Shown here one piece after another: positions 11,701 to 59,620 of a DNA stretch of 59,739 nt (within the stretch, counting starts at the first letter, position 1; each line of letters begins with the position of its first letter). Below the pieces are notes generated by a model. The model saw only the letters and a list, made by a program, of their open reading frames with translations. It had not been told where the DNA came from and made no database searches. The translations under genes and the position numbers were made by a program. The DNA comes from Perkinsus chesapeaki. Lineage: Eukaryota; Perkinsozoa; Perkinsida; Perkinsidae. The stretch is from NCBI GenBank assembly GCA_013115145.1, contig JAAPAO010000135.1:6747-66485 (forward strand). Direction: 5' to 3'.

Positions 11701-14700
11701 ATAAGCAGCGATTCTATAGATTGGTTTTGGTCTGTTATGGAGTTCGTATCAAATGCCGTGGTGTTCTTCCTCGGTGGTGTGCTCTTTGGTGGGGCGTGCT
11801 ATCGTGTTGAACCTATCGAGTTTGTCTGGTAAGCCGACTTTGGGGTATTTCGAGACAGAAACATCTAAAAACGAAAAGTGTCATTCGGCAATAGTGTGTT
11901 CAATTGAGACGTTTCTTCATTGAGATCACACTGTACTACTCTTAAAAGCTTTGTCAGCTTTGAGCGCTTACTGTACGTAGTTGGAGTGTGAAGAATTATA
12001 ATTTACGGTCAACGCTTTTTATCAATATCTGTATACTAAAGGATGTATCTAGGAGTATGAGGAAATGAATATCTTCTTTCGGTTTCTGCCATTGTGTGGT
12101 TTACCATACAAAACCTAGTTTATCGCTCCAAATGCTGAACCCTTAGATCCAAATGCTCAACACTTGAAGTCGAACTTTTTGTAAGCACGCCGGGAATTAT
12201 CTCCACATGAAATCATCTTCTGGTCTCCCCGAACTTAAAAATATGATGCTTTTATTTCTCAGGCTTTTTCTATTATATATCGCTACAACGGCCTCGAGAG
12301 GCATTATGGTGTTCATCCTTTCACCGTTGATAAACACTGTTGGTGAAAAGTAAAAGTGCCCTCTCTGGGAATCGTACCGCGGACCTTTCCGTTGGTAGAT
12401 TTTCCTGGCAGGAGCTCGCCCTGTCGGCCTGGAGTGGAGGGCTCAGAGGTGGAGCTCTTTATTATTTATCCTATTTCGTTCGATGACGCATCAGGTGGCG
12501 TTTCGATGGCGTTGGCAGTTTCCCTTTCACGGTCAAACTTCCTGGACGAGGCCCAAGCCACACAGGTATTTTTCTATTACGGAGGTGGGTGAATTTTTCC
12601 GAAGCCGTGAGTAAGTTACCCTCGTTTAATCGCTTCAGGTCTGGCGTGGATGAGTCTCATCATAAATGCGATGACATGCGGCCCTTTAGTAGACTTTCTT
12701 GGACTTTCCCAGCCGCGAGTAAAAAGCCATAGTGGGGAAACTATTCACCAACTCGGAATATTTTCCCCCGCTTATAATCGTTGAAAATTTCTCTCAGTTC
12801 TCTGTACTGATTAAAATGGAAGCTGTTCGTGCATTACTTCGAAGAACAGTCTATAGCTTCGGTCCAACAGGTGAGGCAAATCGATCGTCAGGGCGTGCGC
12901 TTTTTCAAATCGCGAGCAAGGTCCTGTAGAGGAGCTCTGTCCGAATACCTGGAGGTATCTTCACGCGCAACCTGAGGTGGCAATGAACTCGGTATTGCAG
13001 CACAGGTCGAGTGCTACTGGTGGGGCGCTTTATCATCATTCATCCAAGAAGAAGGGAGCTCTTAATCGTACGCTGAAGTTGAGCGATTTCGTATCTTGCA
13101 CGCTTAACCTTTAGATGCTTCTACCAACCACAAATTTCGAAGGTCTTTGGCAGCTCTCAAAACCCGTCAAGGCTTGGCAGCCATTGCGGATGCTCCGAAC
13201 TCTGAATTGTTGGAGTCACAGAGGGAAACCTATCTCAATGTTTTGGGTAAATTACGTTAGAAATGCCTCACCTGGGGTTCGAACTTGCGTCTGTATACTC
13301 CAGGTCTTCGTAAAAACCCCGTAGGCAAGGATACTGCTAAAACCGTCTTTGGATGAAAGCCATTCCGTGAACTCGTCTGAAGTTCAATTGGCAAATTTTA
13401 AGGTTTCAGTTGGCACTGTCGGGTACCGCTGTATATATTCCTTTACAATCGGGTCCGCCCTGCCTTGTTTTTACGAAACATTTGCGATGAGGTGACCAAT
13501 GCACCTACAATAGGCTATAATAGAGGATAATAGGACCCGCCAAGTTGGTGTATTATCGTCCAGTCTCCGTAATTTTCCCGTTTTGATGGTTCACTTGGAA
13601 TGTTTTATGTCCGTGGTGATTCGGGATGCATATATTTGAAAAATGCTCCCTGGGGAATTTGAACCTGCGTACCTGTTTTAGCTGGCTTTTACAGTAAAGC
13701 ATTGAAGATAGAAGTTATACCAAATCAACCAGAGATTGCTGGACTTTTGTTGAGGACGGTAGAGCATGCCAAAGTTAAGGTAAACTGCTTGTTTTAGGAT
13801 TCATGACTCGTTTAAATGACATCGTGGCTTCACCTCTCTCTATCGTACATGGTAGAACGGCATTTAGGGTCTCTAAGCTCCGGCGGCAATGCTGTTATTG
13901 TCATTATATAGGAAAGTATCTCCCTGGAGGTATACTAGAAAGTCTGACAGAAAGTGTGTCACTAGTGCAGAGTAGGAGGACGAGATAGTTCATAATATAT
14001 GTTATTAATAAAAGAAGTATATCCTTTTCGGGCCTTTTAACCTTTGAATCTCTCATATAGTTGTTCACCTACCCATAACTAGTTTCAAGTGCATTCCTAC
14101 TCTTCAATGGCATGTGTGGCAGATATCAGTTGGCGTTCGGGATTGGAAGGCTGTACATGACTTATTAAGACGAGGCAAAGATAGACATACACAGATGAGG
14201 AATGCTATGGTACGAGAATCTATCTCACACGCGTGCATCTGACGTCAGATCGTGCACCTTTTCCTAGATTGCAGCCGAAAGACTATAGAAGTAAGTCTGA
14301 GACTTTCTTGCGCGCCAGCAAATCTTTAGGCAGTGACAGAGCTGATGTGCCCGAATTTCGAGGCGAGTGACGCTAGGACCGGGTATCAGCAACATCAGCA
14401 AAACAGCGATATCTTGGAGGAGCTTGACAAGATATTTGCCAATATGAAAGTGAGTGACATTAAATGGTTATCCTCCTCATCTTTGTTGTTTATCCTTTAG
14501 CCTGTCTGGTATGCTGTTAAAAGAGAAGTTGAAGGGCATCTGAAGGAGGCTGAGGAAATACTTGGTCAAATGCCAGCAAGAATTGTCCAACTCTCCCACA
14601 GGTTAGTTTAGTGCTATTAAATTTGCCATTCAATCCTCGCTGCAGCGCCTGTCAATTCTATCGCTAACCACGCGACTACCAGTTGAGATAATTATGAAGC

Positions 14701-15360
14701 TCTGGTGAGGGAGACTGAGATATTCCAGCGTTCTGCTCGCACTTGCTTTTCCTTCATTTTGGAACTCAACCCCCCTGCAAAATTATAGAAAAATAATTGG
14801 TAATAAATTTGTTATTATGAAAATAAATCATACCAAATTATAGTAATATCATGACTCATGCTAAGTCGCTCAGTGCAACTGAGGAGCTGCGCTGTCCACC
14901 GTAACTTCAAGGATGGGAGTTGTCGGATTATCTTTCTGATTCCGCCTCCATCAACGATCCGTCGGCCCTCGCATCTCGCTGGTTGTTTTCAGCGGCTTTC
15001 CTCGAATATATCGAGGAGATTTTATATGGTATACTATCCGCCATAACAATACAGTCGTATTATATTTGGTATAGTCTTACTGTTTCGGACCAGCAGGAGC
15101 TAAAGCCCTGTGTTTCCACCTGATTAGATACCAGAAGGTTGGTGAGGTCACACAACAACTTCAAGGGGAATTATTTGACTTGGTGGATTCAGGATTGCTT
15201 AATCAAACAGGTTAGGCAACTTTGAGTGCTCATTACCGACCGAGTTGTGTCGCTGTCTCCCTCAGAAGCCCAAGCTGTTCTAGAGCATATCGACTCTGAT
15301 GTCCGCCGACTTCAACACAATATAGAGTTCCCGGGAAGCGTCCCGGATTTGCTAGAGTAG
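8775..15360 (+). CDS. Na+/H+ exchanger of the CPA1 family (NHE/SOS1-like), many exons
   Basis: Membrane antiporter swapping Na+ (or K+) for H+, with a long cytoplasmic tail. Supported exons include 8775-9044, 9091-9158, 9198-9285, 10445-10570, about 10937-10995, 11100s-11330, about 11490-11640, about 11690-11830, about 12290-12349, 12399-12439, about 12487-12590 and about 12640-12720, with tail exons to a stop at 15358. Order of motifs matches the family: CENLVKVLPPTVAVFKLGM, then IVDPHLICFVFIPMLMFGD (the PExxLxxFLPxLLF segment), DWPIALGICFGAIVSGTEP (TM4), ETESLLGDGMLIVLY (TM5), TAGMMLSW, NAVVFFLGGVLFG, SAWSGGLRGGVSMALAV and a final SLIINAMTC..LGL helix. The tail contains Gln/Glu-rich stretches (LEELDKIF, VLEHIDSDVRRLQ). 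TM5 has GD where the family has ND, and TM4 has TEP instead of TDP. The start and several tail exons are unresolved. Three introns carry antisense tRNA-like modules. Confidence 0.9.
9045..9090 (+). other. 46-nt intron made mostly of a hairpin
   Basis: GT-AG intron whose removal joins the LGM and LLAV codons in frame. Positions 9065-9086 form AAATCGATCA, TG, TGATCGATTT: 10-bp perfect arms with a 2-base loop, four bases before the acceptor AG. Confidence 0.8.
12350..12398 (-). repeat. tRNA-like module forming a whole 49-nt intron (antisense in exchanger gene)
   Basis: The intron GTAAAAGTGCCC...GTTGGTAG lies exactly between exchanger codons VGEK and FSWQEL, in frame. Its reverse complement reads as a tRNA-like 3' half: GGTACGATTCCC (B-box-like), then a short spacer, GGGC-A-CTTTT. 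In this orientation the complement of the oligo-T tail supplies the GTAAAA donor. Confidence 0.7.
13247..13324 (-). repeat. tRNA-like module in exchanger intron
   Basis: On the minus strand: 5' GCCTACGG..., T-arm CAAGTTCGAACCCCAG, GTGAGGC, A, TTTC. The first four bases GCCT pair with AGGC at the 3' end like a shortened acceptor stem, total about 63 nt. It fills an intron delimited by GTAAAT and CCCGTAG; the reading phase across this junction is not fully resolved. Confidence 0.6.
13640..13680 (-). repeat. tRNA-like module in exchanger intron
   Basis: Minus strand: GCAGGTTCAAATTCCCC, AGGGAGC, A, TTTTTC. It lies in the intron upstream of the tail exon KALKIEVIPNQPEIAG; intron ends are uncertain. 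Confidence 0.55.
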
Positions 15361-15582
15361 GAACTGATGTTTCACTGCGCCATAAAATTAAACTCAGACG
15401 GAAGAACGACTTCTCGCTTGATGAGAAGGATTCCGGAAGTGACTGATGATTATTCAATTTCCATGACGTGACAACATTGAACACTAGATGGTGTTTCCCA
15501 TCTGTCGACTTGTGTTTGGGACTTCTGTACTATAATATTAGCGAGTAACACCGGTACCCAATTCCTGCTAGAATGGCGCGGA

Positions 15583-16434
15583 ATGTTGATAGGCATCGAC
15601 GCTCAGCCCGCTCCGGAAAATCTTTTTCCTCTACGAGTTTCTACCGTTTTATACAGTTCAATGACTGAGTCATCATCACATCTACGTTTCTGTTGTTTTC
15701 CACCAAGTAACCGTCCGCCAGTTCCCGAGAGTAGCTCTAACGGATCTAGAGTCATCTGGCACGGTGGGCTACCATATACAATTGAAGATGGTTGTGAACA
15801 TGATAACTACTCCTATGTCGAGACCGATGTCGAGCTCACACCTGAGGTAAATGTCAAAGTTATGGAGCAACCAAGTCGACCATCAATAGCAGCTGTATTG
15901 TGGCCAAGTGGACGGTTGCTTGCTCGAGCGATTGTCGAGCGTCTAGTGGTTCTGCCTTCAAAGGGAAGAGTGATTGAGATTGGTGCAGGGGTGGGGTTAC
16001 CGAGTTTGGCAGCTGCCAAGACTTATCCGGAGCTGGATGTCACTGTGACTGATAGACCAGAAGTACTTGGTTTAATCTCAGCTAATATCAAAGCCAACAA
16101 TTTGCAAGAACATGCCAGTGCGGAAGGGTTCGACTGGTCTAGTAAAGTTCATCATGACAAAATACGTGCCCAGCACTGGGACGTGGTGCTTGCGGCTGAT
16201 GTTGTCTACTTCGAAGAGCAGGATCCACTTCTGTATGCTCTTTCTGCTGTTGCCGAAGATAGACCGGACACACTAGTGGTGTTGGCTTACAGGACTCGAA
16301 CGCCGGAGGACCTCGAGTATCTTCAAGAAAGAGTTTTATCTGCATTCAATGTTGTTGATAGATTTACTATGGAAGAGCCCGGTAGCGGGCGTTCTGAGAT
16401 ACTATCATTGAGATGGGCTGGAGTGAGGAGTTGA
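15583..16434 (+). CDS. METTL21/FAM86-type (Methyltransf_16) protein lysine methyltransferase
   Basis: Single-exon 283-aa class I SAM-dependent methyltransferase, predicted to methylate a lysine of a protein substrate (chaperones and elongation factors are typical targets for the family; the substrate here is unknown). Visible: LWPSG just upstream of the core (about 106-110), motif I EIGAGVGLPSLAA (about 132-144), the acidic-loop region TVTDRPEVLGLISANIKAN (about 154-172) and the diagnostic post-motif II DVVYFEE (about 206-212) preceded by WDVVLAA. The C-terminal half forms the rest of the Rossmann fold (LVVLAYRTR). An alternative start is Met27 at 15661, which would remove a poorly conserved leader. 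It begins 222 bases after the exchanger stop on the same strand. Confidence 0.9.
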   Translation: MLIGIDAQPAPENLFPLRVSTVLYSSMTESSSHLRFCCFPPSNRPPVPESSSNGSRVIWHGGLPYTIEDGCEHDNYSYVETDVELTPEVNVKVMEQPSRPSIAAVLWPSGRLLARAIVERLVVLPSKGRVIEIGAGVGLPSLAAAKTYPELDVTVTDRPEVLGLISANIKANNLQEHASAEGFDWSSKVHHDKIRAQHWDVVLAADVVYFEEQDPLLYALSAVAEDRPDTLVVLAYRTRTPEDLEYLQERVLSAFNVVDRFTMEEPGSGRSEILSLRWAGVRS

Positions 16435-17363
16435 TTCAGCGAGTAAAGTCTGTGTTGTGCACGTCAATGCGGTGTATAGTGATTCCGGATGGGTCAAAGT
16501 ATGAACTCAACTGGATATTGGTCATAGTCAAAGGGCGCGTACTCAGTTGTTGCTCGACAGTAGTGGCGACGGTGCTCCGTTCCGTCCCAGATCCAGCGCC
16601 CACTAGTCTATGGCGAGCTTCGGCTAGCTACCTTGGCTAGCTATCGTGAGCTGTCTCCCTTCCCTCCGGGTGTTGGGACATTCTAGTCAGGGGCAGAAGC
16701 ACTCGTGCGAGGGTCGCATAGCGGAAATGAAATAAATAGTTGATTATACTTACTACGTTTAAACTTTCCACACTCATATAACTTGACGCTGAGCTAAGCT
16801 AGATTACAAAGTCAAAATACACAGAGTAATGCAGACAGCAAGTAACACAGAGCATGTCTCATCATACAGTGTTACTTGTCTGGCTACCGATATAGAAACT
16901 TAAGATTCTCAGCTGACGGTTTGCCAGAGTGTTGCAACTTGCAAGTCCAAAAACACACCTGAGGAAATCTAGATTCCAAGAGACGGGCTCCATTTGTCTA
17001 CATATTCAGGAGCAGTTCAGATCGGCGCTGGACATTTTTTGAATAGTCTGTAATCATTGATTCGGTGCGTGTGTTCGCTTGTGACTGACAAGTTTCCAGT
17101 TGTGCTTGCCTATCCTCTGATTGTTCTTGGATTGCAATACAGTATATCCTAAAGTTCATATTCCTCATGAGTAGCAACGAGGTTGTGGAGGTTACCGAAA
17201 AAAGTAGATTGCGAAGAGTAGAGTGACTTGGTGTCTCGGTATGCTTTCCGCTCGCCCTCGGGCATGGAATTGGCTACAAACGAGACTGCGGGGCCTAAGA
17301 GGAGGGTTTATGAATATGACGTTGTAATGAGAAGGATTTTGCTGCCAGTGTATCTTGTCTTTG
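16435..17363. other. Intergenic region
   Basis: No supported gene. Diverged similarity to the 5' side of family-1 copy A begins near 17220 (upstream flank of copy B). Confidence 0.5.
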
Positions 17364-18916
17364 ATGGCAATGAATCAATCCCTCAAATCTCACAGACTCG
17401 TACACATCATTCTCATTATTGTGATCTATCACTGTGATGCTATAACTTCTGGAGAGACAAGTGGCGTTCTGGTTCAAGAAGGATCAACGGTGCCATTCTT
17501 TGCGTAATTGTTAAATCATCTATTCCTCTTCAGTCACCAAGGTATTCCAGGAGAGGATACTCGGTTTCGAATGGTAGCGATTTCTCGAAAGTAAGTGACC
17601 TCTTTCGATCATGCAGCTGGCAAAAAATATACAGTATTATTCAGATAACTACTGGCTACTACACACATGCGGATGATTCGATTACACTTGCAGACATACA
17701 CAAGCTGGAATACTTTGATAGACGGTGAGCTGCAGGAGACTTGTATCGCTGCTGCATGTTGTTGATCCGGTAAATTAAATGAGACAGGTCTCCGATGAAT
17801 ATTACATCACAATACAGCCAAGTATCGTTGGTGAATGAAGATTTTCTACGAGAACTCCCTTATCTATCACTTGTGCCTAACCATCATACTCGCGAGGAAG
17901 GCCCAAGTTTGGGAAGGTTGTCGATGAAGGCTGCCTTCTCGCGTTACCTGAAAGCAGTGCAACAGAGATACAGACAAGCGCATGGGTGTTCCTACGAGTT
18001 GTATGTTCGAAAATGGTTCAGCACTAGACACTGTCTAGTAGACAGCCTTTTGGGTCACACGAAGCGGTAAGAATTGAAAGTGTTAAGTTTATCATTTCAA
18101 GATTTAGATCATCTCTTCATTTTAGGATATCGGATGGTTCAGGATGAATTTGACCATGACGGATGCTTCGGAAGGCTTTAAAATATCTTCAATAGAATTC
18201 ACATCATTTTGGCCATATGCAAAGTGAGCAAAATTCGTTGGAAGAAGCTTTTTCGTGCAAAAGAACTCCACGACGTCAGCAAGAGCTCACGCAATTGACT
18301 GATTCGTGCCGACGAGTCATGGACGTTGATTTATGGGCGCAGCGATTGCTACTGATCGGAAATAAATCTAGCCTGCTAGCCTATGAGTCATTGGGAATTC
18401 CTATCAGGAGTTTGCTCCGATATTGCTCTCGAGATTCGGAATGAGCTGTTGATGTGATTATACAATAGAAATGTTGAGAGTATATATATTTGGGTGATTA
18501 AGGAGTGTGTTCGAATATATTCATCTCTTCAATGGCATTTGATATTTCGGTATAGCTCCATCTTGCGATTATTCATCATTCTTAGTGTATCCTCCGACCC
18601 TAAGCCGAATATCGACTTCATGCGGAATCTCGAGTCTAAAAACCGGTATCGTGTTCGGCGAGAGTTGCTGGAATATCCTACCAATGAGCACTTGGATCGG
18701 GCATGTATGGTTTTCTTGGATGAAGACATTCGAACTATCAAAAGAGTTATGCAGGAAGCTCTCAGCACCACTCTCGAGTTTGTTCGCACGGACATTTCTC
18801 CTGTGACAAGGGTTGCTGAGGTCCATCGTTTAACTAGGACTTACCATCTTGCGAACAGAGATGATCGAATCAGGGGCAGCGAAAGCCGAATAATTCCGTT
18901 CGGATATCAACGCTAA
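17364..18916 (+). pseudogene. Secreted multicopy family-1, copy B, frameshifted in exon 1
   Basis: Paralogue of 5105-6492. Exons by comparison: 17364 to about 17580 (frame broken), 17645-17724, 17788-18066, 18143-18223, 18586-18916. Signal peptide MAMNQSLKSHRLVHIILIIV then CDAITSG matches copy A. The frame reaches TAA at 17505 after 47 codons, while the homologous sequence resumes in another frame (QSPRYSRR...SNG against QKPEYKT...SNG in A). A 30-bp GT..AG stretch at 17504-17533 covers the spot, but splicing it out would give the non-homologous frame, so an indel is more likely. Exons 2-5 are intact (GPSLGRLSMKAAFSRYL; MNLTMTDASEGFKIS; YHLANRDD). A pseudogene, a sequencing indel, or use of a downstream start are all possible. 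Confidence 0.7.
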
Positions 18917-21713: not shown

Positions 21714-21771
21714 GGCTCGGAGTTGCGTTCCTGTTCCAAAAGAAGATTCTCACAGGCAAATATTGGACCGA

Positions 21772-21801
21772 AGAACTGGTACACTGCAGTGTACCAGTTC
21801 T
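21772..21801. repeat. 30-bp perfect palindrome
   Basis: AGAACTGGTACACTG followed directly by its reverse complement CAGTGTACCAGTTCT. It sits immediately upstream (minus-strand sense) of the mobile-element reading frame. Confidence 0.95.
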
Positions 21802-34970: not shown

Positions 34971-34989
34971 TTGGAAGCTATCATGATCA

Positions 34990-37957: not shown

Positions 37958-38116
37958 CATGGAGCATTATAATAGCATCTATTGTGCATGCGTGCACAAC
38001 AACTACCTCCCATGGAGCATTATAATAGCATCTATTGTGCATGCGTGCACAACAACTACCTCCCATGGAGCATTATAATAGCATCTATTGTGCATGCGTG
38101 CACAACAACTACCTCC
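37958..38116. repeat. Three tandem copies of a 53-bp unit
   Basis: Copies start at 37958, 38011 and 38064 and are identical. Each contains TTGTGCATGCGTGCACAA, an inverted repeat. A diverged relative (ATACTATTAGTATCCATTGTGCAAGC...) occurs at about 40450. Confidence 0.95.
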
Positions 38117-39540: not shown

Positions 39541-39584
39541 ACTTCTTAATGCTGCCGAAATTCCAAATATGATGCTACCAACTC

Positions 39585-40400
39585 AACTAACTGTGAAAGA
39601 ATGTGTTAATAGTGTTAATAACAGCATGAAAGGATATAAAAAGTATAAATTAATAAATGAAATATGAAATATGCATAAGCTCTGCAATACTGAACAGCTG
39701 GCTGCCAGCTGCTGGCATAATATCCACTATTCAGATAGTCTGTGATTGTTTTTGTATCTTGATGAGTTCTCTTTCCACAACCACATTGTAACTTGTACCC
39801 TCATCGACCTCGATAAACATGGTGAAGTCATCAGTCGAGTAGCTTCGCTCAGGACATATCGTATTCAAATCATTTATCATCATCTCTATATCTTCAAGGT
39901 CATCTTCCGTTACATGAAATACAGACTCCTCAAAATCAGGGTCTGCCTCAATACCCACAGTGCTGGAGGCCGGTCTTTTAGTAGCATTGCAGGTCACCTC
40001 CATGTTGACATATGCACCAGGAGGGTCATGGAATGTAAAATCAATATAAAGGTAAGGGTTGGTAACTTCCCCTTTGTAAGTGCCGTTCGGGTAGACGGCG
40101 TGAGACTGAGAGATCATCCAGATGAGGAGTACCGTGTAGAAGGGCATGTCCAATAGTAGAGATGTAACACTAAATACATACTTGTTCTCCTATAGCTTCC
40201 AAAGCGCAATATTCTGCCCTCACAAATAGAAATTTGGACAGCTCTGTACAGGGATCGAAATATATAGGTTCCAGTGGCTCGCAGCTGCTTCAGTGAAGTA
40301 TCGGGGGGGTCCTTCACAGTGTACCAGGTTAGAGGTGACGGCGGGGAGTGTGTGCATGCGTTTAGGGAACGCCTGCGCGATGGTAAACGCCGTTCAGCAA
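39585..40400. repeat. Segmental duplication, unit 1
   Basis: About 820 bp related along its whole length to 41090-41950, including 3' flank (AACTCAACTAACTGTGAAAG), the secreted gene and about 120 bp of near-identical upstream sequence. Confidence 0.9.
39731..40147 (-). CDS. Secreted multicopy family-2 protein, copy 1 (138 aa)
   Basis: Start chosen at ATG 40147, which gives signal peptide MPFYTVLLIWMISQSHA and a mature N-terminus VYPNGTYKGEVTNPYL. A mature protein of about 121 residues with two conserved Cys (EVTCNATK, NTICPERS) and an acidic middle (EADPDFEES, TEDDLEDIE). No known domain. It is the tandem duplicate of 41300-41719: the signal peptide and first 18 mature residues are almost identical, the remainder is much diverged. 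Ends ...IKIQKQSQTI. Probably a lineage-specific secreted protein expressed on a host- or environment-facing interface; that role is inference. The upstream 100 bp is also conserved between copies and presumably holds the promoter or a trans-splice acceptor (CTATAG). Confidence 0.8.
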   Translation of the reverse strand: MPFYTVLLIWMISQSHAVYPNGTYKGEVTNPYLYIDFTFHDPPGAYVNMEVTCNATKRPASSTVGIEADPDFEESVFHVTEDDLEDIEMMINDLNTICPERSYSTDDFTMFIEVDEGTSYNVVVERELIKIQKQSQTI

Positions 40401-40439
40401 TCGCTTCGCAACGGAAATTCTGTTGCAGAATCCCCATTT

Positions 40440-40680
40440 GTGATAGTATGATACTATTAGTATCCATTGTGCAAGCGCGACAAGTATCTCCTGCGGCCCG
40501 CAGGCTGCGGGAGCAAACGTAGAAATGTCACTTGCGTCCAATGTCTGCGATGCTTGGGAGCAGCTCTATCACGCGCCACGTTCGGCAATAAGACAAGATC
40601 GTTATGCGATGCATGCGTCCAGATCATTGTGATGCACGTACACGCAAACACAATATACAATAGACGTTCATGAACCGCTT
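40440..40680. repeat. Diverged repeat related to 37.96-39.24 kb
   Basis: Matches parts of the 53-bp unit and of 39170-39235, in the same order, between the two family-2 genes. It includes a hairpin CTCCTGCGG..CCGCAGG. Confidence 0.6.
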
Positions 40681-41290
40681 TGGGCGAAATACTGGTATAT
40701 TGAGGCCAAACGAGGCGATTCTGAGCCAGTTGTTTGTTATTTTTTTTAAATCCTAGGTAGGGAGATGTCTCTCGATGGTTAATGAACTGATTTACATAAA
40801 TCGACAGAGTATTGTCATAAATTATTACTCATAATACCATCGTAGACATGGATAGCACCAATCTCTCAAACAATCATCGAATTATAACTTATTTGAGATT
40901 CAGTGCTCTCCCCTTCCCACACTCCCGTACCATGGGTTTTTACACGGTTAAAATCGGTGAGTTATACAATTAGTGTCTGAATTTCTGACGGCAGCTTGAA
41001 TAGCGCGGGAGACGGAGTAGTTACTTTTGATATGGTCCTGGAGTTGTAAACAGTCTTGGATACAATCGGCCGGGATCATCGGTATACTAGAAACTCAACT
41101 AACTGTGAAAGAGAGCGTTGATAGTGCTACTAACAGCATGAAGATAGAAAAGATAGATGTGTCGTAATGACATGCTGAAGTCTCGAATGTTCGAAATGAA
41201 GTATGAAATATGTCTTAGCTTCGCAATACCGAATAGCGGAGCATAATAGTCACATGCTCTATGTGACATAGGTTTCCATCCAGATAGCCT

Positions 41291-41315
41291 AAAGATTCCT
41301 TAGTAAGGAATCTTT
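41291..41315. repeat. 25-bp palindrome spanning a stop codon
   Basis: AAAGATTCCTTA, G, TAAGGAATCTTT: 12-bp perfect arms. In minus-strand sense it covers the last codons KIPY and the TAA of family-2 copy 2. Copy 1 lacks it. Confidence 0.9.
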
Positions 41316-41719
41316 TGTATCTTGACAGGTTCTTGGTTCACATACACATTGTAACTAACACCCTTGTCGACCTCGATGAACACAGTGAAGTCACCTATCG
41401 AATAGTCTCGGCCAGGACACGTCATATCCAAATCAGCTGTCATTTGCTGTATAGAGTCTATGTCAATTCCCGATACATAGAACTTAGTCTCATAAGAACC
41501 CCTCGCCGCCTCAATACCCACAGTACTGGAGGCCGGCCCTTTAGTATCATCACAGGTCACATGCATGTCGACATAAGGAGTCTCTGGATAAGGGGGCTCA
41601 TAAAAGATACAATTAATGGATAGGTAAGGGTTGGTAACTTCCCCTTTGTAAGTGCCGTTCGGGTAAACGGCGTGGGACTCAGAGATCATCCAGATGAGGA
41701 GTACCGTGTAGAAGGGCAT
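41300..41719 (-). CDS. Secreted multicopy family-2 protein, copy 2 (139 aa)
   Basis: ATG at 41719 gives signal peptide MPFYTVLLIWMISESHA, one residue different from copy 1. The mature protein starts VYPNGTYKGEVTNPYL and then diverges strongly (YEPPYPETPYVDMHVTC; AARGSYETKFYVSGID; CPGRDYSIGDFTVF). Cys positions and the motif FxVFIEVD..SYNV are kept. Ends QEPVKIQKIPY at a stop inside a 25-bp hairpin. Uninterrupted, so probably functional. Function unknown. Confidence 0.8.
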   Translation of the reverse strand: MPFYTVLLIWMISESHAVYPNGTYKGEVTNPYLSINCIFYEPPYPETPYVDMHVTCDDTKGPASSTVGIEAARGSYETKFYVSGIDIDSIQQMTADLDMTCPGRDYSIGDFTVFIEVDKGVSYNVYVNQEPVKIQKIPY

Positions 41720-41950
41720 GTCCAATAGTAGAGATGTAACACTAAATACATACTTGTTCTCCTATAGCTTCCAAAGCGCAATAGTCTGCCCTCACGAATA
41801 GAAATTTGGACAGCTCTCTACTGAGATCGAACTATACAGGTTTCAGTATCTCGCAGCTACTCCTCATAGTAATAGTTCGGGGAGGATGTGCACTTAGCGC
41901 ATGCGTTCAGTGAACGCAATGGTGCACGCCGTTCACCCTTGGTGCCTTAG

Positions 41951-45800: not shown

Positions 45801-48236
45801 CTTCCTTTTCTTTTCAAACTCCATTCTATCCGTTAAATATTCCTGTAATACCCGAAAATGCAACATGCCGGGATCGAACCTGCGTCCCTCACCTCGACCA
45901 GCAGATCAGCAGTCGATCCAGCTGTATCCTCTTCCCCCTCTTCGTTCTCCTCTTCCATCTCGCTGTACACAGTCACTAAGTTCTCAAGATATCTTTGATA
46001 AGCCTCGAAAACTAATGAGAAATCTCGCACAGTGGAGATGCTCTCCAATGCTTCTTCATACACATCACGAGCCTAGCGGAGCGAAGCGTTGCATGTTTAC
46101 CATGTTTAACATTTCAAACACATACCTTGCCGAAGTTGCCCAATTGGACATAGTAGTCTGCCAAGCTGTTCCATAGGCGGCCGGTTTGGTCCGAAAACTT
46201 CGCTATTGCAGAGCGTACTATCGCATCGACATCGACCGACTTAATCGATGGACCTGATGGAAACCAGTGGAAGCCGAGTGGAAGACTTAGTTACATAGAT
46301 AACCACATAAATGCTAGGAATGGTATCGCTCAATAATGCGCTCAATTACGAAGTATTTTATTTTCTTCCGCTATGTGGAAAAAACGGCGGGCGTGGGAAA
46401 CGAACCTCTGCGGGTCTAGCATTGACGATCTACCATCTCCCGAGGAGAGTCATCTCGATGGCTTACAATGGGCGTGATTGGGTATCATTATGTAAGCCTA
46501 ATATTCCCATTGTGCGACGGAGCGTATCCAATACCAATTCTTTATAGTGCGGCGCTATGCTTACCGTGTGTTGTGACCATATCGCATAGCTCCAACCAAA
46601 GTTGATGATTGGATTTACCCTCCATCGATATAAAGTCAGGATCGTTAACCAACTTCATCTAAAATGCAACTACGTGGATTCGAACTTGCGACCTTCCGGT
46701 AGAAAGGCAGGCTCCTTAACCACCGTACCAGCAGCTTCGCAGCTTCATCCCATTGATCCTCCCCTTCTAAATACGCCACATACGTCTCGGCATGTGCCGG
46801 CTCCAGCATCAGGTAGCTCCTGAAGAGCTCCCCTCCAGTCCTCACCGGAACGTTGAGCTCTCTTATCATATTCATCGCCTGAATAACAACACGACAGCAA
46901 TTATTCCCACAAGGCCTGCCGATAGAGATATGAAAACCCTGGGTGAAGCTCAGATATTTATATTGATAGAGAGCATTCAAACTGGTACCATCTTATTCCG
47001 TACAGCAGCAATCCATGTTAGTGTCATATCGTTGGTTACGCTTCTGGTTACATCCGTCTCATCTCGGGAAGCTTTCTTCGCTCCAACCGGCTCAGTTGGA
47101 AACTGTCCAACTTTCCTTCACACTTCTCTCTTTTGAAACTTTCAACTAGTGTTGGACACTAAAACCTCCGACGAGGTTCGAACGGTATTTTTAATATTCC
47201 TTACGAGCAGCCATGGACGGGAATGTGGGAAAGATACGGCAAACACGGTTATCAGGCACCCCTTCAAAACCTACCAGAGTCCAAACTCTATAGTGCTGAG
47301 TGATCGGTAAACTCCTTAAGGCCTCATAAACAACCTGAAACGTATCTTCAAAGATATCTTTCTCGACCTCACTTACGTGGCGAGTCGACGTTATCTTCAA
47401 CCGTTTAGTTAGGAACTGAATGTACTCCTCCCAAATACGAGGCATCTTGCCCATCACACAAACCGCTCTGGCGTAACACGACTCCACAACGTCATAGGCT
47501 GGATCAGTCACGCAGAGATCGGAAACCCAGGACTCCTGATGAAAATCATAAACCTTGGCATCCGAACTTCGAATCCTGGGATCCCGAAGATACCGGGATT
47601 CGAGATACCTCTGCCTAGCGGAGAGTGGTGGAATAAGAAAGAGATCTGCTCTGTCATAACAGAACAAACATGACAGTGCCCTTGGCCAGCGAATATTTCG
47701 GAAAGCGAGCCGTTTCCAAAGACTCCAAAGACTCTGCACTTGGGATCTCCCATTTCACCCAATGTGAGCCCTCGCAACTAGAGAGGCATGGAGGAGCATC
47801 ACATATACGAGGTATGCCCTTCATATCATATTTCTCAGCTAGCACTTCTCGATCGCCTATTTCGGCTAGTGAGTTGCTTACCCTTAGCTTGAGATAACTG
47901 TGCCATATCTTATAGCATCTTGGAAGCTCCCTCAGAGCTCTCTCGTGCAGTTGAAACAAAAACTCCATAAAGGCGTCCTGAAATAAATAATAACACTTAA
48001 GGCAAAAACACATTTACCTTTAAATCCGCATTTTGTTTCATTTCCATCCGTTTCGTAGTCGCCTGTATATAATACCACCACAGGCGCATCGACCCTGGGC
48101 TTCGACGAACCTCTTGTTCAAGCTCGACATCAACACATGCCGACAGATCAACAGAAATGCTCGCAGAGCTTTCTGACACCTCTAGCTGTGCTAAGGAGGG
48201 CGGCGGCGGCGCTGCACTCAACACTTTCGCAGCCAT
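42866..48236 (-). CDS. SYF1: Pre-mRNA-splicing factor SYF1 (XAB2-like) HAT-repeat protein, many exons
   Basis: Scaffold of the NineTeen complex of the spliceosome. From ATG 48236 ([14 protein letters not shown]...) exons run leftward with the family's order of HAT repeats: [86 protein letters not shown] (about 47270), [20 protein letters not shown] and [17 protein letters not shown] (junction 46729/46658), [54 protein letters not shown] (about 46030), [14 protein letters not shown] (about 44800), [34 protein letters not shown] (about 44430). The C-terminus reads [24 protein letters not shown]. Several introns carry tRNA-like modules. Exon borders in the central part are only partly resolved; identity is secure from the repeat order. 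Confidence 0.88.
45843..45898 (-). repeat. tRNA-like module forming a whole 56-nt SYF1 intron
   Basis: Minus-strand intron GTCGAGG...TATTACAG between codons TADLL and EYLTDR. It contains GCAGGTTCGATCCCGGC (T-arm with 4 of 5 stem pairs), ATGTTGC, A, TTTTC. With the preceding exon end it also resembles an A-box side (AGCTGGATCGAC). Confidence 0.75.
46379..46411 (-). repeat. tRNA-like 3' module inside a longer SYF1 intron
   Basis: Minus strand: GCAGAGGTTCGTTTCCCAC, GCCCGCC, G, TTTTTT. It is embedded in the roughly 310-nt intron between about 46566 and 46257. Confidence 0.55.
46659..46728 (-). repeat. tRNA-like element forming a whole 70-nt SYF1 intron
   Basis: Intron GTACGGTGGTTAAGG...GCATTTTAG. 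Its limits are fixed by protein homology ([17 protein letters not shown]). It has an A-box-like GTGGTTAAGG, a middle resembling an anticodon arm, GGTCGCAAGTTCGAATCC (B-box), TAGTTGC, A, TTTTAG. The oligo-T tail plus AG is the splice acceptor. This is the most complete example. Confidence 0.8.
47157..47190 (-). repeat. Possible tRNA-like module in SYF1 intron
   Basis: Minus strand: CCGTTCGAACCTCGTCGGAGGTTTTAG; same layout as the other modules but weaker and with no GCA. Confidence 0.35.
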
Positions 48237-49548: not shown

Positions 49549-49877
49549 TCAGTCGTCATGATGGTGATGCTCCTTTGAGGGGCCGATACCGAGCTTTCGT
49601 TCAAGCTGCGCAATCTCCTCTTTGACCTGCTTATACCTGCGGATAAAAAGCGTCACCGCTTCGGATCGAACCCATGCCCTTCCGAATGGCAGCCTTACTC
49701 TCGGTATTCTCGCTCTATCGGAACGATGTCTTTGTGGTACTTAATCTTCCGCTGGTTCTCTACGAAGAATCGTGCCTGGTACTGCTGTAGGCCCTCCCGA
49801 ATCCGAGACTTCTCATCAATCCTAATCGGACGGAAGCAAGGTTCGAATGAATGAATCCGACAAAATTTCGGTGCCAT
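49549..49877 (-). CDS. Small coiled-coil protein with His-rich tail, 88 aa, 2 exons
   Basis: Exons 49699-49877 and 49549-49636. Sequence: MAPKFCRIHSFEPCF..., then a charged helix (EKSRIREGLQQYQARFF, KIKYHKDIVPIEREY), continuing after the intron with KQVKEEIAQLERKLG and ending KEHHHHDD. Basic N-terminus could be a mitochondrial presequence. Length and helical, His-containing end recall the mitochondrial ATPase inhibitor IF1, but the conserved IF1 inhibitory motif is not evident, so I do not assign it. Its only intron is a tRNA-like module. Confidence 0.65.
49637..49698 (-). repeat. tRNA-like module forming a whole 62-nt intron
   Basis: Minus-strand intron GTAAGGCTGCC...ATCCGCAG in the 88-aa protein gene. 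It contains CATGGGTTCGATCCGAAG, then GTGACGC, TTTTT, and the acceptor. Removing it keeps the coding frame (..YRE/YKQVKEEI..). Confidence 0.75.
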
Positions 49878-51849: not shown

Positions 51850-51959
51850 AACATATTTCCTATCAAACTCCTTTCTATTATATCTCCTCCTCCGTATCAC
51901 TAGTAACATATTTCCAATCAAACTCCTTTCTATTATATCTCCTCCTCCGTATCACTAGT
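51850..51959. repeat. Two tandem copies of a 55-bp unit
   Basis: Copies at 51850-51904 and 51905-51959 differ by one base (CCTATC / CCAATC). CT-rich; likely local duplication. Confidence 0.9.
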
Positions 51960-51999
51960 ACCATTTCCCCCTCTCTATTACCTGTCCCTCACTTCCTAT

Positions 52000-53945: not shown

Positions 53946-54770
53946 TCAATCTTCTGGAGTGTCGTCCGTCGTATCTGATTCCCCATCCCCATCCTCATCT
54001 TCACTATACTCTATCAGTGTGTAATTAGGTGACACATACTTGGCATAGAACTGTCGAATGGATGAAGAATACCTGAACGGCTAAAGTAGTAAAAAGTCAA
54101 TGTCCCTCAGCATTTACCACCTGAATTTCGTAAGCGAACTCTAAACAAATATGACAACTACAATCTGCGAAAATGAAACGGTTGATCGATTTGCTTTGTC
54201 ATGACGGAATGTAACGCCATCATCATTGATCGCTTGAAAGTGTGCCCGTTGAGGGGCCAGCCTTGGGAGCTGCTCACCTTCCGTGTCCTATCACTGCTAT
54301 CACAGACGTCTTGTGCCCCGATTACCGAGTCATACGAAAAGTTACAATCATAATTTTACTGTTAACAGTACATTCGTCTAGCTAGCACTCGGTGCCGAGT
54401 ACGGTGCCGATTCCGATTCCACGCTACACTTCAATTTTAATCCACGAATTTTTCCATTTCTGATCATCTAGAATATCAAACAACTATTCGCAACAGCCCC
54501 CCAACCCCCCCGACCCGTATTACCATGACCAGCACAACAGCATTACAATTAATAATACCCCCGCCACATGACGACATATATTAGTCATCTCCTCACAAAG
54601 CGTCGAATCCATCCTCGTAACAGCTACATTAAACAGCTAGAGGTGTCAGAATAATAATGATTCCTACCTATTTGCAAAAAGCTCAAATCGTCATCCAGTA
54701 GGTTCTCATCATCCGCCAGATATCCACCCGCCGCAGATGGCTGTTCCAATCCGGGGTCGAATGATGACAT
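53946..54770 (-). CDS. Uncharacterised acidic protein, multi-exon
   Basis: First exon 54668-54770 starts MSSFDPGLEQPSAAGGYLAD then DENLLDDDLSFLQI with a GTAGG donor. The last exon 53946-54072 reads IRQFYAKYVSPNYTLIEYSE followed by an acidic tail (DEDGDGESDTTDDTPED). A middle exon candidate near 54160-54275 reads QLPRLAPQRAHFQAINDDG. No domain recognised. Internal exon borders unresolved. Confidence 0.45.
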
Positions 54771-55157
54771 GCAAAAATACTAACAGCGATATAACAAAGC
54801 CAGGATCCTATTAGTGGCTTGCAACAACTCATAACAACCGAACCCGAATTATCGAAGATTTTCCGAGTGCCAAAAATTATAATGTCCAATTATATAAGCA
54901 ACCATTCATATATCCAAGCTCAGATTGGATACTCCTAACGCCAAAACATCGTAACTTGTTTCTACACCTTTCAGAAATCTTTCTCGCGCTTTAGGCCACC
55001 TATTTGGCGGTAGGACCGGAGTATGTTAAAAGCAGCCCCCCTGGGAACATATAAAAGATGTGGAGTAATATGTCGATTGCTCTCTACTTAACGCAATAAT
55101 GACGAGCCTTTGGATAGAAACAGCAATACGAGGAATAACTCCACTGCAGAATTGTTT

Positions 55158-55200
55158 TAGAAATGCCGTGTGCCGGGATCGAACCCGCACCATCACGCGG
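55158..55200 (-). repeat. tRNA-like module at the ChaC stop codon
   Basis: Minus strand: GGTGCGGGTTCGATCCCGGC (T-arm, 4 of 5 pairs), ACACGGC, A, TTTC. It starts over the TGA of the ChaC gene. It lies in the 3' UTR, or is a last intron (GTGCCGCG..CTGCAG) that would replace the stop. Confidence 0.65.
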
Positions 55201-57038
55201 CACTCTCGATCGCTTTGTATAGCGATTCCACATGATCATCGTGAACCCCCAAGGACTCTAGACAATGCCAAAGGCGACATACCTGCAATAATAGTTTTGT
55301 GGCGCGTGACTGAACATTATATAAATATAATGAGGCGGTGGTGGCATAAAGATATTTCTTATTACATCTCCATCCCCTAAATGGTCTACTAACGTTCAAT
55401 GCCCCAACTATTACATAGTCCTTATTTGCCCCACTCGGCCCCACCGCCTTCGACACCCGTTTGGCAATCGTTTGAATGCTCTCCGGTCCAGTGAACATTG
55501 GATTCTCATCCTTATCAACAGAACCATAATAAAGATAACAATCTCCTATAATAAAAATCCACCAAAAATCACCGCACCCATATTACCAATTATTTTCCCC
55601 TTCGCATCATACAAAGTCGACACCGTTCTAGTGTACCCGTTTTTCTCCCTAATGTCGAGTATCTAATAATTATTTTCATTAACAACCTGACAAGCCATGC
55701 ATGCGCAAAGCCGGCGTTGGAAATTCCCTTCATCTTTTATGTAGGGAAAGCCCATCCAACAGTTTGTCGCCGAGGATCTACAACGTGCTGCAAGAAGTGA
55801 GGCCTTTTTTGGCACTTCGTTGGCGGAGTTCTCCAGTGAGCATTCGGTATTCCTGTCCCCAAGAAGGTCCGTGCTTGCCTCGGCCAATGATGGAATACTG
55901 TTACATTATACACTATGTTCGTAGCCAAGTCCGGAAGCACATTTCCCTACGAAGCCATCTGTTCGATCAACCACAACTCGGAGCCCAATACAAATATCAA
56001 AGTCAGACGGCAATAGGGACACTTGAAGTGCCACTTGTGTTTGAGACATTTCAACAACCGCAAGATTTCACGAGGTGGGCGGTCTTTTTTGCAATACCGT
56101 GACATGTAACATCGCGGCGACCTACTGCCTATTACCGTTATTATTATTATAAATTATTTCTTTAACTTTTATTTATATAAATTATTTCTTCAACTTTTAT
56201 TATTATAGAAGTAACCTGTACCGATAGACAACTAGTTAAGAGTTTTTCAAGAGCTCAAACTGATCAAGTTGAATTCTAACGAACACCTCAGACGGTCGAA
56301 TGACTAATCTTCTGGAGGATCGACAAACATTGAGTATCCACTTGGATTAACCAGTTAAACCCGATATGACCTTCATAGTCTCATCAAAGTTGTCATCCTT
56401 AAGAACATATGCCATGCCCCAAACACCATCGTGCTCTCCTTCATCACGATCTCTAGCACTAGTGACCGGAAGATCCTCGCAACGTAGAAGTGTGGCTACT
56501 CTGAAAAGGGATGTCAATTACAGATAAAGCGGTATAATAAATCGTAGTGATTAATGAAGTAAATAGTTAGTCATACATTGTCAAAATTAATACAAAGTAA
56601 ATTAGTGCTTTTAAGTACATGATGCTTTGTGCCCATTGAAATATCCAAAGTCCTAGATCCACAGAGAGCCTGTGTGGTGGTTAGAGGATTCTACCTGCCA
56701 GGATATGTCGGGGTGCCTCGATGATCGACACTGGACTGCCAAAACCGCCGTACAAAGCCTTTGACTTTTGCAGGAAACGAGTTAGTCTGAAGTAGGCGGG
56801 GAAATCGGTATGAGAGTGATAAAACCAAGTCAAGCTGAATGGTCCTACATAATCTAAAGCAGGTCTCCACATGATAGAGCCATAACCGAAAATAATACGA
56901 ATATCTTTTCGTTGGCGAGCAATGGGATCAACCTGATAAGAAGTCCACAGAGAGACAATGAAGGCCTACCCTAGCGGTTGCCCAGCAGGAACCATTACGA
57001 TCTAAATCAGGTGATGAGGTATCTTCGATAACTTCCAT
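55193..57038 (-). CDS. ChaC-family gamma-glutamylcyclotransferase, 7 exons, 223 aa
   Basis: Cytosolic enzyme that cleaves glutathione to 5-oxoproline and Cys-Gly. Exons: 56970-57038, 56849-56932, 56695-56786, 56371-56500, 55587-55662, 55415-55545, 55193-55282; all GT-AG, total exactly 224 codons, the usual family length. Motifs: substrate-binding IIFGYGSIMWRPALDY, KGFVRRFWQSSVDHRGTP, VWGMAYVL, ILDIREKNGYTRTV containing the catalytic Glu, AVGPSGANKDY and the C-terminal LGVHDDHVESLYKAI. Intron 1 is 37 nt and intron 5 is 41 nt, but intron 4 (55663-56370) is 708 nt and carries unrelated open frames. The class (ChaC1 or ChaC2 type) is not decided. Confidence 0.93.
55663..56370 (-). other. Large ChaC intron with open frames and direct repeats
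   Basis: Inside are a plus-strand 133-codon frame (55701-56102) and a minus-strand 74-codon frame ending NFQRRLCACMACQVVN. Near 56145-56215 an AT-rich unit (ATAAATTATTTCTT.AACTTTTATT) occurs twice in tandem. Possibly a decayed insertion. Confidence 0.45.
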
Positions 57039-57148
57039 CACCGAAAAAATTTAAAATAGCAATGACTGTTCGATGAAGTAGCGCGCGCCGGACTTACACC
57101 GTGGGAGCGCGCGCCCTAAAACAAATCGGGCTGTTCAATAGACCCGGC

Positions 57149-57181
57149 TAAGTTCGAACCCAGTAACGCTTTTCAAAACAG
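57149..57181 (+). repeat. tRNA-like module, plus strand
   Basis: CTAAGTTCGAACCCAGTAACGCTTTTCAAAACAG. It shares the GTRACGCTTTT tail with the intron at 49637-49698. It lies upstream of the Myb/SANT-like ORF. Confidence 0.5.
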
Positions 57182-57298
57182 CTTTTAAAAAGCGATCTCC
57201 GTATTGCGTTCAATAGATGTGCGGCCGAGATTCATAGTTCTTCTTAAGAACTTCTTTAGCTCAGCTACCTTCCTATTGAGAGGTTTTCAACATGCCAC

Positions 57299-57886
57299 AT
57301 GCCCGTAAAACCATCTAGTGCGGATTCTTTGACCATTACTCAAGCTAATACTAGCAAAAATATCTTCACAGAAGAGGAAACTAACTCATTGGGCAACATC
57401 ATCAGCAACGAGTCCGAGAATCGTCTACCCATTATATTGTCGAAGGGTAACTCTGCTGACGCAAGAGCTCAGCAATCTTATATTTGGAGTAAGATAGCAG
57501 AGGAGTACAACGATCAAGCTGCTGAGTTATCCTATGGTTATAGCGGACATAGGCGCATTGGAGAGCAACTAAAGCGGAAGTTTCAAGCTATTCGAACTCA
57601 AGCCAAGTCGGATGCGGCGGCTGCAAAGAACTCTTTAGCAACGACTGGAGGAGGGCGACTAGGAGTGTCTAGCTATCATAGCAGCTTCACGGTCAACTTG
57701 AGTCCAGAGGAGCTTTACGGTGTTGGCGACGCCATATTTGGTACAGTGAAGACCTCTAACCCGCAGAGTTCCGCGGCAGGGTCCTCGACCGACATCCACG
57801 ACCCGTCTTTCGGCTCATTGCCAGACAATACGGCCACAGCTAAAGTTCGTGATATCGATTATGAGGTTGAGCAGCCCGATGTTTGA
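57299..57886 (+). CDS. Myb/SANT-like DNA-binding protein, 195 aa, probably transposon-encoded
   Basis: ATG at 57299. Residues about 23-100 read FTEEETNSLGNIISNES, YIWSKIAEEYNDQ, RRIGEQLKRKFQAIRTQAK: three helices with the spaced Trp/basic pattern of the Myb/SANT-like domain found in PIF/Harbinger-type transposons and related host genes. The C-terminal half is Ser/Gly/Asp-rich. About 150 bp upstream a GGGCTGTTCAATAGA string resembles a Harbinger-type terminus, with a weaker second copy (GTTCAATAGAT) at 57209; no transposase is visible in the window. DNA-binding is inferred. Confidence 0.55.
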   Translation: MPVKPSSADSLTITQANTSKNIFTEEETNSLGNIISNESENRLPIILSKGNSADARAQQSYIWSKIAEEYNDQAAELSYGYSGHRRIGEQLKRKFQAIRTQAKSDAAAAKNSLATTGGGRLGVSSYHSSFTVNLSPEELYGVGDAIFGTVKTSNPQSSAAGSSTDIHDPSFGSLPDNTATAKVRDIDYEVEQPDV

Positions 57887-58922
57887 GGAATAAATACAGG
57901 TGGTTCAGAAGACTCGCCGAAGTTAAGAGCCGAACAGGACAAGTTCTCATCAAGCAGCCCATCGTGCAGCAATTATTGGTTTATATGCAGCCAACTTCGG
58001 ATTATTCAAAATGCGGTGGACAGAATAGGAGCGACTATTGGATACTCACCATCAACACCGCCAAAGATTCGCTCCTCCACCTCGAGCGAGAAGGATTCAA
58101 TGATGGCTTTCGCTTGGGCTGAAGCTCAGTGCCGTCGACGGGCAGGCCAGAAGCCCTTGGTTTCTGGATCAAGATTCTGGGCTAGATATATCGATACCCA
58201 ACGACCGAATGGACTTTCCTGCAGTCATACGCCTGCTGCTTATCGCAATATGTTCAACATATCGCTGAAAACGTTTATAACATAGGCTTTAGAATCGTGG
58301 AAAATTACAAATCAAGTCACACTATACCCTCCTGGATATACACCTAGAACCGCAAGCACCTCTGAATGATACATTTCACTCATTGTAAATGGTAAGACTA
58401 TGGGGAACGTTAAGGAGTCATGATATCATTTAGTACATGCTTCATTTTCAGATGCGTGGAGTTCTACGGATGGGTGCCATCAGCCGAGATAACAGTAGTG
58501 TTTCCAATAATCCACCAGTTTCCAATATTATACGTTCCGTATATACTACTATAAGTCAGTAGCACCCTCTCTATTTCAATACCCAAGGCTAGGTGGGTAT
58601 TATTATTTATTGGTATTAATCATCATTATCCTTGGTTGCGTTATTCTATAAAGTGTTATGAGCAATTCCTTAAGAGGCATCGACGACATTGAGCAAGAGG
58701 AAACTAACGGCTCCCAACAATATTATCCGCATATTACCACTACTACAAATGACAGCTACCGCGGAAACCTCAATATCTGTACTAAACGGTGCACTTGTTG
58801 AATCAGACGCACCGGACAACAACGCCAGCATGCCAAATTTGTTCGTGGAATCTACCAACTTGGCAACAAAACTTGGCCCATCTTGGCTCAAGTTGGATTT
58901 TTTTCAACTAACAACCTAAAAC
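57887..58922. other. Transposon-like region, no firm gene
   Basis: Short frames without recognised domains continue on the plus strand after the Myb/SANT-like ORF. Confidence 0.4.
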
Positions 58923-59285
58923 ATGCCAATTCCGCCGTCTGGGGAGACTCCAACCCAGCGCGGCAAACGCTCTCGTGCCTCCCCGTCGCCGAATACTACT
59001 GGACTGAACAAGAACAAGCTAAGCTGAGCCGATGAGTAAGACTTGGATGATGAGGATCAACTTGAATCCGAAGAAGCAGACGAGCAGGATGGTAGTATCG
59101 CAAGCGACGGGGCCGCGAGCGATGGGTTGGCTAGTTTTACAAATGGATATGTGCCCTTTAAGGATTTAGTACGCGAGATCGAGGATGTTGTGAATGAATG
59201 TCTCAATAGCGATCGGATTCTCTCGGATTCATTCGGCGCCAGATTGCAAGAGTCCGCAAGGGTGATACATTGGAGATGCACCTGA
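58923..59285 (+). pseudogene. Acidic ORF broken by two in-frame stops
   Basis: From ATG 58923 one frame reads MPIPPSGETPTQRGKRSRAS ... NKNKLS, TGA, ADE, TAA, DLDDEDQLESEEADEQDGS ... VPFKDLVREIEDVVNECL to a stop at 59285. Basic Ser/Pro start followed by an acidic stretch and a helical end resembles regulatory or ORF1-type proteins of mobile elements. The two stops within 15 bases suggest decay, unless a small intron removes them. Confidence 0.45.
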
Positions 59286-59289
59286 AAAT

Positions 59290-59480
59290 CACGAAAACCT
59301 GGTAACCGCCTAGTGATTACCGCGGAAATCGCGAAAAGGTAACCTACTTTACCATATCACCAAAAACCGCTAGCGAAAACCGCCATATCGCGAAAACCGC
59401 AAACCAAATATCACGATAAACCGCGTTTTTCGCGAAATGATAAATGTTTTTCGTGTTTACCATTTCACATGAAAAACTAC
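59290..59480. repeat. Cluster of AACCGC/GCGGTT motifs
   Basis: At least eight copies of short units such as CGCGAAAACCGC, GGTAACCGCC and AAACCGCGTTTTTCGCG in both orientations, giving many small hairpins. Confidence 0.75.
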
Positions 59481-59541
59481 ACCTATTTAACGCGGTTTTC
59501 ACAGTGTAAACCACGTGGTAACCGCCAGAATCTTGAAGAGC

Positions 59542-59620
59542 AAAAATGCATAGAGGTAGAATCGAACCCACAACCATCTTCTAATGAACCATGTATCCTA
59601 ACCGACTCCGTGATTTGGTT
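59542..59620 (-). repeat. tRNA-like element with A- and B-box-like sequences
   Basis: Minus strand: GAGTCGGTTAGGATA (A-box-like), TGGTTCATTAGAAGATGG, TTGTGGGTTCGATTCTACC, TCTATGC, A, TTTTTGC. The closest to a full tRNA in the window, but no acceptor stem pairs with TCTATGC, so not called as a functional tRNA. Confidence 0.6.

Follow-up and report, generated by a model that had tools for sequence, protein, structure and literature searches.

The window and its element copies

We analysed a stretch of 59,739 nucleotides (nt) of Perkinsus chesapeaki DNA (contig C41:6747-66485), which is called the window here and which carries SYF1 together with other spliceosomal and nuclear genes with short introns. 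Dispersed through it are copies of a short module consisting of a tRNA T-arm, the 3' strand of the acceptor stem, the discriminator base A73 and TTTT in the exact spacing of a tRNA. This module is the core of the element studied in this work, a putative introner of tRNA descent. A sequence-only model of the element (R1, 37 columns) was made from 81 copies, after 8 of the 89 copies collected had been excluded by judgement. The copies and introns in the window are listed below.

12350-12398, plus strand: 49-nt intron of a Na+/H+ exchanger gene with the element reversed (core 12351-12386 on the minus strand)
13247-13324, plus strand: candidate 78-nt intron 3' of the exchanger exons, placed by reading frame only (core 13259-13291 on the minus strand)
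13639-13670, minus strand: decayed element copy (R1, 15.8 bits, E 0.001)
45843-45892, minus strand: predicted 50-nt SYF1 intron, GTGAGG...TTACAG, whose splicing restores the frame (core 45855-45888)
46659-46728, minus strand: 70-nt SYF1 intron, GTACGG...GCATTTTAG, with gapless homology across the junction
49637-49698, minus strand: predicted 62-nt intron, GTAAGG...CCGCAG, a diverged copy in a small protein gene, with the open frame restored
55144-55196, minus strand: candidate 53-nt intron whose 5' splice site is weak, placed by reading frame only (core 55159-55191)
59542-59603, minus strand: element copy with a tRNA-like D-loop and anticodon region (GGTTAGGATA...GCATTTTT), from model R1 and the tRNA-Gly(TCC) alignment

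The original prediction had proposed ten sites with a shared module, and eight of them were recovered. Model R1 matches seven (45855-45888, 55159-55191, 13259-13291, 46661-46694, 12351-12386, 59542-59576 and 13639-13670), all on the minus strand and with E values from 9.5e-9 to 1e-3; six of these sites were included in its training and 13639 was outside it. The eighth, 49637-49698, was found with a position matrix made from the R1 rows and used without a control (21.2 bits), where the T-run lies two bases out of register. The sites at 46379-46411 and 57149-57181 gave no R1 match at E<=10 and are not supported.

Four of the sites had been described as whole introns, and for two of them homology confirms this. 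The copy at 46659-46728 has more tRNA-like sequence upstream of its T-arm than any other copy, and its junction lies within a gapless alignment to two solved Syf1 chains and within a HAT_Syf1_M stretch (69-122, spanning residue 88). At 12350-12398 the GTAAAA 5' splice site is the complement of the element T-run and a Na_H_Exchanger stretch (8-71) crosses the junction near residue 36; these boundaries were placed by eye, whereas a script favoured a 62-nt intron. The intron proposed at 45843-45898 falls in a poorly conserved acidic stretch of SYF1, where an end at 45892 appears better and 45898 is less likely. Splicing out 49637-49698 gives the open frame ...IEREYREYKQVKEE..., and the protein spanning this intron has no convincing family match.

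In addition, a B-box-like word followed by GGTTTTAG was noticed at 47174-47183 (minus strand) within a 396-nt SYF1 intron; it is possibly a decayed copy.

A dispersed repeat of the host genome

The module was searched for in 35.4 Mb of genome sequence (884 contigs). The pattern GTTCGAWYCC, 7-10 nt, GCATTTT has 167 exact copies (77 + 90) and its reversed form has none, while with a fixed 8-nt spacer and up to two mismatches there are 1405 copies (666 + 739) against 14 for the reversed form. A 33-nt consensus with up to three mismatches gave 8 matches against 0. In tRNA numbering from G53, the 10 nt after C62 reach C72, which is followed by A73 and TTTT. Of the exact B-box words in the fetched DNA, 24 played no part in the choice of loci; 15 of these 24 have at least five of the seven GCATTTT letters in place, one of the 15 being a genuine tRNA-Arg. 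The reversed word occurs once in the same DNA, without this tail. Inside the window the bare B-box word (up to one mismatch) was found 22 times compared with a shuffle mean of 11.7, a count reached by 1 of 100 shuffles. The enrichment of the bare B-box in the window is only mild; that of the full module genome-wide is far beyond chance. Copies of a subfamily that have most of the module in common sit on different contigs. The module is a dispersed repeat of the host genome. Viral contigs gave no match to the element consensus and, with a looser extended pattern, two exact matches, one corresponding to the 3' end of a tRNA-Leu that ARAGORN calls and the other without a tRNA call.

The set of 89 copies was defined by a B-box-like word, at least two of four upstream letters (columns 46, 48, 50 and 52) and at least four of seven tail letters. 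Twenty of its loci were chosen by spacer sequence, eight by consensus and none by intron status, and a genuine tRNA-Arg (L002:474-547) was dropped from it, though it is still 1 of the 55 copies used in the counts of splice-word positions given below. Conservation extends from about -10 to +26 around G53 and no column beyond exceeds 0.21 bits. The conservation of the selected columns is inflated because the copies were chosen on them; in 30 strict copies, chosen without regard to the upstream columns, these columns are 83-90% conserved. The 3' end is sharp at TTTT while conservation at the 5' side fades near -10, and longer copies are few.

Element copies as predicted whole introns

Copies close to the consensus often consist of GTRRG, a few bases, GGTCGCAGGTTCGATTCCTGGTGGAGGCATTTT and then (T/C)AG. 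In 55 copies, words resembling a 5' splice site are concentrated at 11-15 nt upstream (15, against 1-6 in each 5-nt bin from -160 to -16), and on the opposite strand they peak 25-34 nt downstream, where two bins hold 8 and 7 and the others 1-4. A tight-intron test, in which the best candidate intron had to score at least 14 with both splice sites no more than 20 nt from the core, was passed by 51 of 89 copies and, with the same scoring, by 79 of 900 random positions in the same loci. When the distance limit is dropped, 67 of 89 copies and 206 of 900 random positions pass, the 67 copies comprising 44 in forward and 23 in reverse orientation relative to the gene. The similarity reaches near the splice boundaries, as in the groups of similar introns that PMC9860276 calls introners, and we conclude from these sequence comparisons that many copies appear to make up whole introns, in both orientations and in unrelated genes.

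This conclusion is tempered by two results. About 9% of random positions pass the tight-intron test, and a stricter finder, with stronger 5' words and longer open frames, returned only 18 element introns (median 69 nt) among its 392 candidates in 313 kb. The stricter finder was used for composition and length only, because many of the 392 must be false introns.

Homology confirms the predicted excision of the element in a number of genes. Twenty spliced products were hand-picked from 81 candidates as recognisable coding sequence, so that the 11 in which a Pfam stretch above the curated cut-off crosses the junction are not a rate. In forward orientation (six) the domains are RsmB-F/NSUN, C2, MCM_OB, HAD, amidohydrolase and SYF1, and in reverse orientation (five) they are kinase, poly(A) polymerase (PAP_NTPase), ion channel, Na/H exchanger and RRM. 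For the poly(A) polymerase, an alignment to the PDB is also gapless across the reverse-oriented element intron. Weak matches to TPR, Band_7, SURF6 and OSR1_C were left out of the 11. The RING and myosin stretches (the latter below the cut-off) stop short of the junction, and three of the 20 products have no Pfam match. The host genes are unrelated, in line with the original prediction.

Empty sites were searched for in three gene families of the same genome, namely potassium (K) channels, exchangers and kinases. The sequence runs uninterrupted through the position of the element intron, for the K channel, in two paralogues on C187 (61% and 57% identity), for the exchanger in one on C540 (41%) and for the kinase in one each on C28 and C422 (40% and 37%). 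More distant K-channel matches on C446 and C828 also cross this position. A kinase match on C457 carries an in-frame stop. These intron-free paralogues favour gain of the element introns, most clearly for the K channel. Against this, the K-channel match on C1 stops exactly at the junction and is uninformative; each pair alone could reflect a loss, and at 37-61% identity the paralogue comparison by itself cannot separate gain from loss.

The same observations bear on whether the element creates introns at all. Old fragments of tRNA-derived short interspersed nuclear elements (SINEs) might have lain in pre-existing introns that later shrank, and short introns are indeed common in this genome (the SYF1 introns without an element are 40, 42 and 53 nt long). 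We consider this unlikely, since 46 of 69 candidate element introns scoring at least 13 are 40-60 nt long around a core of about 35 nt, which leaves no space for a host intron of ordinary size. Furthermore, splice-site words adjoin the element edges, beside the T-run, in both orientations, and the paralogues described above are uninterrupted.

Relationship to tRNA genes

Applied to 17 loci, model R1 gave 15 matches. Eight of these fall on tRNA genes that ARAGORN calls; they are matched in register and none was in the training. Their scores are 23.5 bits for tRNA-Gly(TCC), 19.1 for Leu, 17.8 for Ile, 15.1, 14.2, 13.7 and 13.6 for Thr and 13.3 for Arg. When whole copies were aligned to tRNA-Gly(TCC), 46659-46728 scored 56.5, where the best of 200 shuffles reached 32, while the margins were smaller for 59542 (46.5 against 42.5) and 12350 (37.5 against 35). 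The part upstream of the T-arm scored 27.0 in 46659, above 300 of 300 shuffles, and 26.5 in 59542, a value reached by 1 of 300 shuffles. The tRNA-Gly(TCC) likeness of the copies at 46659 and 59542 may thus continue into the D- and anticodon arms. Overall, the family is quite probably of tRNA origin, judging by its register and by the tRNA genes that its model finds.

Several results speak against such an origin or narrow it to the 3' part of the tRNA. Within the 17 loci R1 finds none of the tRNA-Gln genes and misses the Ile gene of L053 as well as the majority of the tRNA-Arg genes. Three of the six sequences aligned to tRNA-Gly(TCC) (49637, 13247 and L099) do not rise above shuffles. In a second scoring with 8 tRNAs and 89 copies, the upstream parts of 46659 and 59542 reached z values of only 1.7 and 1.6; the mean z was 0.33 and neither of the two is among the 3 of 89 copies that exceed z=3. 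The mean identity in register is similar to all eight tRNAs tried (19.4-22.6 of 35). T-stem pairing is not kept, as 68.1% of cells pair compared with 71.4% in shuffles and 493 of 500 shuffles are as high or higher. Positions 66, 67 and 69 hold only 0.06-0.16 bits across the 89 copies despite their conserved neighbours, a pattern that one decaying master copy cannot explain.

With near-equal identity to the eight tRNAs no parent tRNA is identified, and a single parent was rejected as none of the eight stands out. T-stem covariation as proof of a tRNA fold was also rejected, the pairing being no better than in shuffles. A tRNA pattern that combines a CTCAGT D-arm with a GGCA end has no match, and a pattern joining D-loop and B-box is rare, with 6 matches in the whole genome, 2 of them real tRNAs. 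The 3' halves of the tRNA-Gly(TCC) and tRNA-Leu genes of the same genome fit the element model, with Gly the best for two long copies, but ARAGORN calls these genes and not the element copies tested.

A DNA-transposon-like introner, whose likeness to a T-arm arose by chance or convergence, would account for the unkept T-stem and the hypervariable positions 66, 67 and 69, which look as if two short blocks were constrained, and for the fact that both orientations work; 59.2% of the 130 classifiable introner families in PMC9860276 have DNA-transposon signatures. We nevertheless judge it quite unlikely, given the exact tRNA spacing, the genuine tRNA genes that R1 matches in register and the two copies that may reach the D- and anticodon arms of tRNA-Gly, although the second scoring does not single these out. 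Target-site duplications, which are treated below, were not detected either, and no terminal inverted repeats were noticed by eye in the aligned cores, where no systematic search was made.

The diversity on the acceptor side, the near-equal likeness to several tRNAs and the absence of a detected target-site duplication would also suit the independent capture of tRNA 3' fragments, from gene pieces or RNA, at double-strand breaks and with no propagating element. This is very unlikely in our view because an end like GC-A-TTTT prevails where it was not selected (the 15 of 24 B-box words above), whereas the Arg, Gln, Ile and Thr genes inspected end otherwise, and because subfamily copies on different contigs have most of the module in common. 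The tRNA-Gly gene does end in GCATTT.

Selection in place, as a conserved intronic RNA or splicing signal or as a small RNA gene transcribed by RNA polymerase III (pol III), is extremely improbable. It draws on the fact that the B-box and the GCATTTT end are strongly conserved, in part as a result of copy selection, but it sits poorly with the presence of the element in both gene orientations and the lack of compensatory pairing. Neither ARAGORN nor Rfam calls a tRNA in the window, and the copies do not show the T-stem and cloverleaf pairing of a functional tRNA.

A longer dispersed repeat, which measures 271 nt or more and includes the element module in a tRNA-like centre, was observed in L100, L101, L102 and L113 and at 14 places genome-wide. 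Three fetched copies carry GTCGTGGGTTCGAATCCCAC-AGGCTGCATTTT exactly and L113 carries it with two changes. Its centre scores 45.5 against tRNA-Leu compared with 38 for shuffles, while its upstream part alone was matched by 62 of 300 shuffles. Five of the 14 matches begin inside the query, which fits 5' truncation but also the ends of alignments or contigs. This repeat is a candidate parent of the introner; it differs from the element in its length.

Proposed origin of the introns and comparison with known systems

Where new spliceosomal introns come from has long been debated, and introners are a leading answer. Taking the intron and tRNA evidence together, we find it likely that the element forms a family of introners derived from a tRNA. 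Its way of spreading is more tentative, and the scheme that follows, in which a tRNA-derived retroposon is copied from a pol III transcript primed at its U-tail and makes introns genome-wide by landing in exons either way round, has in our estimate somewhat less than an even chance of being right. The source would be a tRNA-derived pol III RNA, reverse-transcribed from the U-tail with early 5' truncation, presumably by the reverse transcriptase of a resident retroelement; the genome holds 56 RVT_1 matches. A copy is about 35-45 nt long and contains the 3' part of a tRNA-like gene, from the end of the variable region through the T-arm, the 3' acceptor strand and A73 to TTTT, and its landing in an exon would give a new spliceosomal intron. 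Read forward, the T-run with the AG behind it would act as pyrimidine tract and 3' splice site, and a GTRRG-type 5' site would typically precede GTTCGA by 10-17 nt. Read in reverse, the element can offer GTAAAA, the complement of its T-run, as 5' splice site, and its far end would supply YAG. Selection would then have favoured the insertions that are spliced.

Target-site duplications were not detected beyond the splice-site consensus, which counts against this scheme: the longest common string averages 4.01 compared with 4.04 for shuffled partners, in a test that would miss element boundaries lying off the splice sites or a short duplication that falls together with AGGT. The T at exon position +2 was considered as an AGGT duplication and rejected, as it also occurs in other candidate introns (137 of 373). 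The original prediction of a SINE-like, tRNA-derived introner holds for the dispersal, the tRNA register, the whole introns in unrelated genes and some intron-free paralogues. Its SINE-like movement fared less well, as no full-length active copy or target-site duplication could be established, pairing in the T-stem is not kept and in most copies the likeness to a tRNA is confined to the 3' part.

The element resembles tRNA-derived SINEs and retropseudogenes in being multi-copy and in having the B-box, discriminator and T-run in register. It differs in that most copies have no recognisable A-box half, body or tail, no target-site duplication was detected, T-stem pairing is not kept and many copies appear to be whole introns.

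Introners have been described in Micromonas, Aureococcus, Symbiodinium, Amoebophrya and fungi, with median family lengths of 30-654 nt in PMC9860276. The element is equally dispersed, lies in unrelated genes and falls within this length range, but unlike those introners it consists of a tRNA 3' module, is intronic in both orientations and has no detected target-site duplication. The main text of PMC9860276 has neither 'tRNA' nor 'SINE' as a whole word, and in the portions available PMC7789003, PMC12730881, PMC12768974 and PMC3488318 describe no tRNA-derived introner. No report of one was found in the open-access library searched, though the introns of this genome might appear, under no name of their own, in a table of a subscription paper or supplement. 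In PMC9860276, a survey of 2022, the majority of classifiable families look like DNA transposons. If our reading is true, this would be an RNA-mediated introner of tRNA descent whose terminator doubles as the 3' or the 5' splice site depending on orientation. Such a family would link the birth of introns to pol III retroposition and would account for splice sites that a terminator supplies in finished form.

Other repeats in the window

A possible second introner family without tRNA likeness is marked by the motif AAGGTTRAGCGTGCAAGATRC, which occurs at 1775-1809 and 13068-13114 of the window and at L093:2824 and L094:473. With up to three mismatches the motif has 9 matches in the fetched DNA against 0 for its reversed form; only a part of these 9 resemble members of the family, and one lies in a SYF1 exon. 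The segment 1775-1809 is a 35-nt candidate intron in a kinase gene (VRM|VHRDLK), which we take from this protein motif to be a CDK-like kinase. A tandem array at positions 1-113 is made of a 19-nt unit, AAGGTTGAGCGTATCTTTC, in 5.9 copies and has GGTTGAGCGT in common with this second family. In addition, a tandem duplication of about 1.5 kb was observed at 39572-41861, where the blocks are 73-91% identical, and a 53-nt unit is present at 37958-38116 in three identical tandem copies.

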